From an uncultured Halorubrum sp. (GTDB lineage Archaea; Halobacteriota; Halobacteria; Halobacteriales; Haloferacaceae), in NCBI RefSeq assembly GCF_937146585.1, contig NZ_CAKZRO010000022.1:1-64000 (forward strand): a DNA stretch of 64,000 nt, written 5' to 3'. Position 1 is the stretch's first letter; every line of letters begins with the position of its first letter. Both the position numbers and the translations under genes were made by a program. Positions 34,464 to 36,961 of the stretch are shown here, piece by piece. The notes below the pieces were generated by a model, which was not told where the DNA came from, made no database searches, and worked only from the letters and a program-made list of their open reading frames with translations.

Positions 34464-35159
34464 ATGAGCGACGGCTTCGACAAGGAGGCGGAACGAGAGA
34501 AGCTCCGCGAGAAGTACGCGGACGACGAGCAGAAGCGCGAGCACACACAGCGGATGTCCGAGCTCCTCCTGAAGGGCGCGACGATGACGAACCGCCACTG
34601 CGAGGAGTGCGGCGACCCCATCTTCCGCCACGACGGCCGCGAGTTCTGCCCCACCTGCGGGAGCGCGGCGGGCGGCGACGTGGGATCGGGGTCGACCGGC
34701 GCGGAGGCGGCCGGTGCGGACGAGGCCGCGGACGCCGCGGCCCCGACCGCGGAGAGCGGCGTCGACGCCGCGGCCGAGAACGGAGTCGCCGGTTCCGGGA
34801 CGGCCGACTCCGGAGCGGCCGAAGGTCGGCAGCCGGAGTCGCCGCCGTCGGCGACCGTACCGCCCCGGGGCTCGTCGCCGCAGGAGCCGCGGTCGCCGCA
34901 GGAGTCGCCTCCGCAGGCGTCGGATTCGACGCGCGACTCCGCCCCGCAGCGGTCCGGGCGCGAGGCCGCCGAGTCCCCACAGTCGAACCCGTCGCGGTCG
35001 GCGACCGACGCCGACGGCCTCGGAGCCGCCCGCGCGTCGCTGACGCGCACGCTGACGCGGTTCGCCCGCGCGGCCGAGGAAACCGACGACCCCCGGCGCG
35101 CCCGCGACCACCTCGAAGCGGCCCGCGAAGCGGCCGAGGCCCTCGCGGCGCTGGACTGA
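34464..35159 (+). CDS. Sjogren's/scleroderma autoantigen 1 (AutoAg p27) family protein
   Basis: A 231-residue protein. The N-terminal 75 residues hold the family core: a charged helix, MSELLLKGATMTNRHCEECGDPIF, and a zinc ribbon of two CxxC pairs (CEEC, CPTC). A Ser/Pro/Ala/Glu-rich linker of about 100 residues leads to a C-terminal helical segment (about 185-231). The family is shared by archaea and eukaryotes; its function is unclear. GACTTTTG at 34433-34440 provides a TATA element. Confidence 0.85.
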   Translation: MSDGFDKEAEREKLREKYADDEQKREHTQRMSELLLKGATMTNRHCEECGDPIFRHDGREFCPTCGSAAGGDVGSGSTGAEAAGADEAADAAAPTAESGVDAAAENGVAGSGTADSGAAEGRQPESPPSATVPPRGSSPQEPRSPQESPPQASDSTRDSAPQRSGREAAESPQSNPSRSATDADGLGAARASLTRTLTRFARAAEETDDPRRARDHLEAAREAAEALAALD

Positions 35160-35219
35160 TACCACGTAGTCGTCCGGTTTCGCGCGGTGGCGGTATCAGC
35201 GTCCTCGCTGTCTATTCAT

Positions 35220-35428
35220 GACCCGCTGCGAGCGGATCGGCGGTGAACAACGCCAAAACCCCAGTCGCGAGGCCCGCCCCGCACAGTGCCTCGCGCCTCC
35301 CCAGCCTCGTCGGCCTCCCCCCGGTCGGCCGACTCCAGCGAGAATCGAAGATTCGCTGGCAGCCGGCGCGTAGCGCCGGCGACCCCGCGCGTGCTTCTCA
35401 CGCCCTTCGGGCGTTCGAAGGCACGCGC
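35220..35428. repeat. Element of serial palindromes, possible interspersed repeat
   Basis: At least five hairpins follow one another. GACCCGCT/AGCGGATC at 35220-35238 has one mismatch. CGCGAGGC/GCCTCGCG are at 35266-35273 and 35288-35295. CCAGCGA/TCGCTGG lies within 35335-35359. GCCGGCGC-GTA-GCGCCGGC spans 35362-35380. A long stem at 35387-35428 has GCGCGTGCTTC pairing with GAAGGCACGCGC (one bulge) and inner ACGCCC-TTC-GGGCGT. The element fills the convergent gap between the autoantigen-family gene and glmM. No coding assignment is supported. Confidence 0.65.
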
Positions 35429-35460
35429 CACGGCAGTTCTCCTCGTGAAATAGACCGCCG

Positions 35461-36825
35461 TTATCGCCCGCTCTCGACGGCGACGCGCATGTCCTTCGCC
35501 AGCCGCTCGGCGCGGTCGGCGTCGGCGGACTCGGCGTAGATCCGGATCTTCGGCTCGGTGCCCGACGGGCGGACGAGCACCCACGCGTCGCCGTAGTCGA
35601 GCCGGTAGCCGTCGGTCGTGTTCGGCTCCGCGTCGGCGGTCTCGACGTAGGCGCGGGCGGCCGAGAGCAGCTCGTCGCGCTCGTCGTCGTCCTCGTACTC
35701 GACGTTCACCCGCACGAAGTGGTAGTCGCTGTACGGGGCGACGATCTCGCTGACCGGGGCGCCGTCCGCGGCCGCGAGCAGTTCGAGGAACCGCGCGCCG
35801 ATGTACGCGCCGTCCCGGGAGAGCCGGTACGGCGGGAAGAACACCCCGCCGTTCCCCTCGCCCGCGACGGGGACGTTCGTCCCCGCCTCGTGGAGCTCGC
35901 GCGTCCGGGTGATGATGTTCGTCGCGCCGATGGGCGTGAGCTCGAGGTCGGCGTCGTTGGCGGCGCAGACGTCGACGAGCCGCTGGGAGACGTTGACCGC
36001 GCTGACGACGGCGTCGTCCGGCTCGAGGCAGGCGTCCGCCAGCGCCGCGAAGGAGGTGTCGCCGTCGACGAAGGCCCCCTCCTCGTCGACGAAGACGGCC
36101 CGGTCCGCGTCGCCGTCGTGCGCGATCCCCACGTCGGCGTCGGAGGTCGCGACCAGCCGCGAGAGGTCCGCGAGGTTCTCGGGGACCGGCTCGGAGTCGC
36201 GGCCGGGGAAGTGGCCGTCGGGCGTCGCGTTCACGGTCAGCACCTCGCAGCCGAGCTCGCGGTAGATCCGCGGCGAGGCCACCGAGGCCGCGCCGTGGCC
36301 GGGGTCGACCGCGACCGTGAGGTCCGCGTCCGCGACCGCCTCGCGGTCGACGGCGGCGGTCAGCTGGTCGACGTAGTCGTCGACGGCCCCCTCGATCGGC
36401 GTCGTCGCACCGGCCGACCGCCAGTCGGCGTGGTCGTACTCGTCGTCGAGGACGCGGCGCTCGATCCGCTCTAGCACGTCGACGGAGAGCTCCACGCCGT
36501 CGTCGCCGACGAGCTTGATCCCGTTGAACTCGGGCGGGTTGTGGGACGCGGTGACGAGGACGGCCGGGACCTCGGCCGCCTCGCAGTAGCTGCCGACCGC
36601 CGGGGTGGGGACGACCCCGAGGCGGTCGACGTCGCAGCCGACCGCGGCGAGCCCGCTCGCGGCCGCGTTCGCGAACAGCTCGCCGGTCGTTCGCGTGTCG
36701 CGGGCGACGGCGACGCGGTCGGCGTCCCACACCGTCCCGGCCGCCTTCGCGATGTCGAGGACGAGCGCGGGCGTGAGGTACCGCAGCGCGACCCCGCGAA
36801 TACCGCTCGATCCGAACAGCTCCAT
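35461..36825 (-). CDS. glmM: Phosphoglucosamine mutase-type phosphohexomutase
   Basis: A 454-residue alpha-D-phosphohexomutase. Family sites are all present: catalytic phosphoserine loop TASHNPP (near residue 93), metal loop DGDADR (near 235), sugar loop EGNGG (near 322) and phosphate loop RPSGTEPK near the end. The start MELFGSSGIRGV is typical of archaeal GlmM/phosphomannomutase. It converts glucosamine 6-phosphate to glucosamine 1-phosphate, or mannose/glucose phosphates; the family overlaps in specificity, so the symbol is tentative. Confidence 0.85.
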   Translation of the reverse strand: MELFGSSGIRGVALRYLTPALVLDIAKAAGTVWDADRVAVARDTRTTGELFANAAASGLAAVGCDVDRLGVVPTPAVGSYCEAAEVPAVLVTASHNPPEFNGIKLVGDDGVELSVDVLERIERRVLDDEYDHADWRSAGATTPIEGAVDDYVDQLTAAVDREAVADADLTVAVDPGHGAASVASPRIYRELGCEVLTVNATPDGHFPGRDSEPVPENLADLSRLVATSDADVGIAHDGDADRAVFVDEEGAFVDGDTSFAALADACLEPDDAVVSAVNVSQRLVDVCAANDADLELTPIGATNIITRTRELHEAGTNVPVAGEGNGGVFFPPYRLSRDGAYIGARFLELLAAADGAPVSEIVAPYSDYHFVRVNVEYEDDDERDELLSAARAYVETADAEPNTTDGYRLDYGDAWVLVRPSGTEPKIRIYAESADADRAERLAKDMRVAVESGR

Positions 36826-36961
36826 GCGAGGCCATGCGCCGGCCGAGGGGAAATCGGTTCCGAACCGCCGCTGCCGCGGCGTCCGCCGAACGCGGCGAGT
36901 CCGGTGCTCGCCCGCCGCGACGACGCGTGCGGTTCATGCCGGTGGCGTCCGTTCGTCCCGT

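Follow-up and report, generated by a model that had tools for sequence, protein, structure and literature searches.

The window analysed here, a stretch of 64,000 nucleotides of Halorubrum DNA, contains a run of serial hairpins at 35233-35435, with a gene for a p27-like zinc-ribbon protein (Auto_anti-p27, PF06677; 34464-35159, plus strand) on its left and a convergent gene for a glmM-like phosphohexomutase (PF02878-PF02880 and PF00408; 35461-36825, minus strand) on its right, their stop codons lying 74 bp and 26 bp from the element, respectively. The loci nearest to this glmM belong to Halorubrum (97% for Halorubrum coriense). On the plus strand, the element begins with a head, GCGGATCGGCGGTGAACAACGCCAAAACCCCAG (35233-35264), that is common to copies at tens of sites, followed by a residual part of the hairpin A left arm (35263-35273), recognized by alignment with the orthologue in H. 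coriense (L063), which retains the whole of this hairpin; the remainder is missing from the window copy, with the deletion junction falling between GCGAGGC and CCGCCCC. A C-rich linker ending in CCTCGCGCCTCCCCAGCCTCG (35274-35308, plus strand), the most conserved part of the family, leads to hairpin B, GTCGGCC/GGCCGAC (35309-35333), the stem sequence of which varies among copies. The optional hairpin chain (module B', 35335-35383) here comprises two serial hairpins, CCAGCGAGAATC-GAA-GATTCGCTGG (35335-35359) and GCCGGCGC-GTA-GCGCCGGC (35362-35380), and six-hairpin versions are found at other sites. In hairpin C (35387-35428), the arms of which covary among copies, the stem counts 8 + 3 + 6 = 17 pairs; the TC/TC internal loop occupies 35398-35399 and 35415-35416, and the hairpin is capped by a TTC triloop, in full agreement with the description given by an earlier sequence-only reading of this DNA. 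The element closes with CACGGCA (35429-35435, plus strand; family consensus CACCGCA), where similarity between copies ends. Outside the element, the stop codon of the p27-like gene forms part of a perfect 8-bp inverted repeat, CTGATACC/GGTATCAG, at 35156-35199.

The serial hairpins between convergent genes reported by the sequence-only reading fold better than shuffled sequence. As RNA, the plus strand of 35216-35440 reaches -109.4 kcal/mol vs -91.9 +/- 4.2 kcal/mol for dinucleotide shuffles (z -4.2), beating 200 of 200, and the minus strand (z -3.2) beats all shuffles but one. The limits originally proposed, 35216-35430, are better drawn at 35233-35435, as 35216 is merely the end of a long antisense open reading frame. 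This frame (35216-36937, minus strand) does exist as a mechanical ORF, as had been claimed, but it crosses the coding sequence of glmM in a different frame, arises from the GC-rich composition of the DNA, and does not count as evidence of coding. The view that the structure is more than a simple terminator was borne out, as there is no T-run terminator in 35150-35500, and membership in the intrinsic terminator class, in which a T-run follows the hairpin, is rejected. A known Rfam RNA is likewise rejected, the covariance models giving no match for the window element at E up to 1.

The sequence-only reading had offered a short interspersed palindromic repeat as one identity for this DNA and had named the lack of any second copy as grounds for abandoning the idea; searches of the window's own genome and of other Halorubrum genomes recovered many, and this identity is supported. 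The window's genome (G000) yields at least 63 matches with the window copy and at least 57 with a full copy as query, which merge into at least 41 distinct sites; this assembly consists of 2.70 Mb in 173 contigs and is 92% complete. In 2.4 Mb of a nearly complete congener (G016), there are 118 copies, all intergenic, 95 of which are at least 200 bp long, amounting to 28.9 kb in total, or approximately one copy per 20 kb. All 17 of the other Halorubrum genomes of the first screen have at least 25 matches each, and an order-wide screen with a threshold of E<1e-10 found matches, mostly to hairpin A, in 12 of 48 genera. Plasmid and phage collections gave no match with the window copy; with a full copy, a few haloarchaeal plasmids were matched, including those of Halobaculum and Halorubrum salinarum, and the phage collection again gave none. 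Copies at different sites reach a full-length identity of at most ~87% in G016 and ~83% in G000. To our knowledge, few families of extragenic palindromes have been described in Archaea, and no prior description of this one was found in the open-access literature searched.

A full copy of approximately 200-300 bp has the order head, hairpin A, C-rich linker, hairpin B, optional hairpin chain, and hairpin C. The family head is GAACACC(G/T)CC(A/G)AAGCCCCAG, hairpin A spans about 95-105 bp (AGCCGCGAGG...CCTCGCGGCT), the linker runs from CCCCTTTGAGTCCCGCCCCGCAC to CCTCACGCCTCCCCAGCCTCG, and the right end, beyond which copies lose similarity, is GGCACGCGCCACCGCA. Heads in other copies are repeated in tandem with TTATAAA motifs. 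In one locus (L066), the spacer between thioredoxin-like and NifU genes holds six near-identical 63-bp head units with TTATAAA, an array that is a recent tandem expansion. Promoter repeats of the HF2 virus were considered as a source of the TTATAAA heads and set aside, as the motifs quoted in the available part of the source differ and the phage collection gave no match. The hairpin chains follow a grammar of CAG-stem-loop-stem-CGAC/GGG, of which the window chain is the two-unit form. Near-identical chains of six different perfect hairpins lie between hairpins B and C at three places in G016 (L182:15837-15967, L240:9551-9681, and L261:490-620), and the longest chain in a shuffled genome control was two. 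At two sites in G000 (C124:9261 and C135:8880), the interior of hairpin A is inverted relative to its arms, as expected from recombination between the arms. CAG...CGAC hairpin arrays also occur in frame inside two predicted genes of G016 (L263:11285-11464 and L266:6577-6622), the translations of which contain a histidine-kinase N-box, and produce repeats such as NSVEHGSTSSRTESGDSVEHG there; invasion of coding sequence by palindromic units is also possible.

The stems vary in sequence among copies, and folding is retained through two-sided changes. The three pairs above the outer stem of hairpin C occur as TCC/GGA, GAC/GTC, GGT/ACC, and TAC/GTA, among others, and these triplet arms are fully paired in 62% of 71 copies vs 21% when the arms are re-dealt (maximum 38% in 2000 rounds). 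Across 52 full copies, two-sided changes are found at 25 of 46 consensus pairs and leave 95.8% paired, although the copies are related and the counts are not independent. At the glmM site itself, the second serial hairpin differs on both arms between the window, GCCGGCGC/GCGCCGGC, and H. coriense, GTCGGGC/GCCCGAC. Compensatory changes, the absence of which had been named beforehand as decisive against the original proposal, were thus found in the hairpin C arms, at the consensus pairs, and in the coriense orthologue.

The sites of the family are conserved between species. Of the sites of the window's genome, 33 can be paired with G016 by collinearity of both flanks (about 74-97% identical), and 28 of these, including the glmM site (G016 1581166), are occupied there, vs a background occupancy of 8.1% of G016 spacers (P about 4e-26); the element has the expected orientation at 26 of the 28 (P about 1.5e-6). 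The content of these sites follows a different pattern. Copies at the same site are no closer to each other than copies at different sites: over the 13 pairs that could be measured, the mean percentile among all comparisons is 0.46, and in none of them do the first 9 nt of hairpin B agree. Within G016, patches of 60 nt or longer with an identity of at least 96% are common to 121 pairs drawn from 80 copies, almost never including the flanks, although the longest few pairs are split halves of one site and are to be discounted. At one pair of sites, the B-C cores are 99% identical and the heads and hairpins A differ considerably.

Presence at individual sites also turns over. In ezzemoulense, Atlit-26R, californiense, yunnanense, and others, the copy in the glmM spacer has the same orientation and different hairpins, and the spacer lacks a copy in several species, including alkaliphilum (17 bp) and sodomense (162 bp); in rubrum and captivus, the frame of the adjacent gene made the called spacer short, and there is a weak match immediately outside it. 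Six glmM spacers from several Halorubrum species (L066, L067, L076, L079, L093, and L096) contain an extra conserved, coding-like stretch (TCCATCT..GCCCAGCTCGG..) that is missing from the window. At two further spacers, X and Y, the element is present in some species and absent in others, and the insert at Y also differs in orientation between species. There, the whole insert of L081 (about 1699-2254) is flipped relative to the flanking genes in comparison with L073 and L080, and is bounded by GATAGCGGGAGTG / CACTCCCGC; these outer inverted repeats are not part of the family, as they are absent from the first 800 kb of G016. Between-species comparison of the glmM, X, and Y spacers revealed no precise empty site with a clean junction.

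The overwriting of a resident slot from other copies is the simplest account of these observations, given that the sites are conserved, same-site content is no closer, and patches are shared between sites. We think it probable, if far from certain, that this is an old, genus-wide, non-coding composite palindromic repeat family occupying vertically inherited intergenic slots, the content of which is overwritten by ectopic gene conversion. The slots would pass vertically, and exchange via the conserved linkers and joints would overwrite or recombine their content. Haloarchaea have been documented to be polyploid, with active gene conversion (PMC8223754, PMC4056108). As judged from sequence comparisons, gene conversion between copies may be the cause of the mosaic copies, and we propose that it also led to module loss, such as that of hairpin A in the window, and to growth of the hairpin chains. 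Two alternatives could account for the same-site divergence as well: new insertions landing repeatedly in old copies, or strong constraint combined with saturation. Several points weigh against the reading of inherited slots and conversion: the percentile test includes only 13 pairs, genes were predicted with a home-made caller, there is turnover at glmM, X, and Y, and the insert at Y is flipped. A bolder claim is that there are ~120-150 genus-wide, fixed-orientation addresses that always hold a multi-hairpin element, with reshuffled content and tagged hairpin units gained and lost, and that this constitutes a domesticated, concertedly evolving chromosomal element of a kind not described before; we advance this tentatively, as something possible rather than probable.

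A rival explanation is that the element is a selected two-way transcription end or mRNA 3' stabilizer, with the serial hairpins limiting read-through from either side, especially between convergent genes. Its location lends this some credence. None of the 118 copies in G016 overlaps a gene predicted by a simple home-made codon-based caller (82% coding), and by spacer type, 36 are convergent, 61 tandem, and 18 divergent, compared with 156, 845, and 373, respectively, among reference spacers of 60-1500 bp. Convergent spacers are thus enriched 3.6-fold (36/115 vs 156/1374, odds 3.6, p 5e-8) and divergent spacers depleted (odds 0.5, p 0.006), the right end of the element is a median of 32 nt from the stop of a gene that it faces, and structure is kept on both strands. 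In Haloferax volcanii, hairpins lie upstream of 503 RNA 3' ends, and a hairpin tested in vivo terminated 59% of transcripts (PMC7237163). However, about half of the copies lie between genes in tandem, with no clear preference for either orientation (37 vs 24, p 0.12), 18 are in divergent spacers, most convergent gene pairs lack a copy, and no T-run follows the hairpins; depletion on the promoter side would also follow from purifying selection against a mildly harmful insert. We therefore regard this explanation as doubtful, and any present role in transcript ends would be one suggested by position and folding. Within the preferred reading of inherited, overwritten slots, the most tentative step is that a two-way folded spacer downstream of genes may now be tolerated or useful, for example in ending or trimming transcripts from both sides.

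The sequence-only reading had also raised the possibility of a miniature mobile element, and in its strongest form, this rival holds that the repeat is an active non-autonomous single-stranded-DNA transposon, a Halorubrum PATE or REP, mobilized in trans by an IS200/IS605-type tyrosine transposase that recognizes subterminal hairpins. There are hairpins near both ends without terminal inverted repeats or target duplications, and a target-like motif, TTTATA/TTATAA, follows the right end at a distance of 4-15 nt in 23% of copies (14 of 61) vs 1.7% of control intergenic windows. Smaller hairpin modules are nested within the element, as in the Haloquadratum PATEs attacked by SMRs (PMC3119063), and 41 of 52 Halorubrum genomes encode a Y1 transposase. 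However, no Y1 transposase (PF01797) is present in G000, G016, G002, G004, or G005, all of which carry the family, 30 Y1 and 30 TnpB loci sampled within Halorubrum have ends unlike those of the element, copies at different sites are at best ~87% (G016) or ~83% (G000) identical over their full length, and the sites are conserved between species. We accordingly consider present mobility unlikely: the element keeps its sites and orientation between species, its flanks show no target duplication (longest flank repeat 6.97 vs 6.85 +/- 0.13 for shuffled pairs), and the search for a transposase with ends like its own was negative. The mismatched ends also lead us to reject the sampled Y1 and TnpB loci as parents of the repeat, and the absence of terminal inverted repeats and target duplication to reject a MITE. 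A mobile ancestry remains plausible, and the family might have descended from a PATE-like or REP-like element that moved as single-stranded DNA, a step to which we attach less weight than to slot inheritance and conversion.

PATEs, or palindrome-associated transposable elements, were described in Haloquadratum walsbyi (Dyall-Smith et al. 2011, PMC3119063), and one has been reported in Halorubrum lacusprofundi and the virus HRTV-DL1 (PMC10544981). Like PATEs, the present family is haloarchaeal, non-coding, and a few hundred bp long, with many divergent copies, internal deletions, and invasion by smaller palindromic modules; at 200-300 bp, it is too short for a transposase gene, it has palindromes near both termini (hairpins A and C) with a head and tail that are not inverted copies, and it lacks target duplication. 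The TTTATA/TTATAA motif near the right end of 23% of copies, at a variable spacing, recalls the terminal target oligonucleotide of PATEs (PMC3119063). Unlike PATEs, it has no match in the phage collection, its ends do not resemble IS605-type transposon ends (as judged from the 30 Y1 and 30 TnpB loci), its sites and orientation are conserved, and its interior is modular, with several hairpins, linkers, and mosaic exchange. High copy number, extragenic location, composite palindrome arrays, and recurring joint motifs are shared with REP/BIME elements (PMC2817692, PMC3733652), but the joints, by sequence reading, are CAG...CGAC/GGG rather than GTAG or CGTC tags, there is no RAYT-type/Y1 transposase (PF01797 is absent from G000 and G016), and the units have a fixed order within a longer element. 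The small modules nested in hairpin A or adjoining hairpin C resemble the SMR-A repeats that invade PATE palindromes (PMC3119063), although, as read from the sequence, they are hairpin chains rather than 110-bp units with terminal inverted repeats. The family therefore resembles both PATEs and BIMEs yet fails a defining test of each.

It is very improbable that the repeat acts in trans as a structured non-coding RNA transcribed from one strand. The minus-strand consensus does fold somewhat better than the plus strand (-68 vs -58 kcal/mol), and hairpin C mismatches lean, by wobble counting, to those that form G-U pairs on the minus strand, but the other hairpins have no such lean, there is neither an Rfam match nor a consistent promoter, and modules are freely lost and gained among more than 100 divergent copies. 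A structured RNA at the 3' end of glmM would not be specific to that gene, as copies adjoin numerous genes and in either orientation. An origin as chance hairpins, in which GC-rich DNA abounds (1523 perfect ones in a shuffled 2.4 Mb), or as an ordinary intrinsic terminator can be dismissed, refuted by the existence of dispersed homologous copies, and opposed further by the shuffle tests, the covariation, and the lack of a T-run.

The family is a high-copy modular palindromic repeat of the PATE/BIME kind that occupies roughly 1% of a Halorubrum chromosome (28.9 kb of 2.4 Mb), and what is surprising about it is that a stable address is separated from shuffled content. Staying at a site and keeping a sequence are usually confounded, and this family separates the two. 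It also provides a natural setting in which to test ectopic gene conversion among polyploid archaea and to ask if spacers with multiple hairpins influence the transcript ends of convergent genes.
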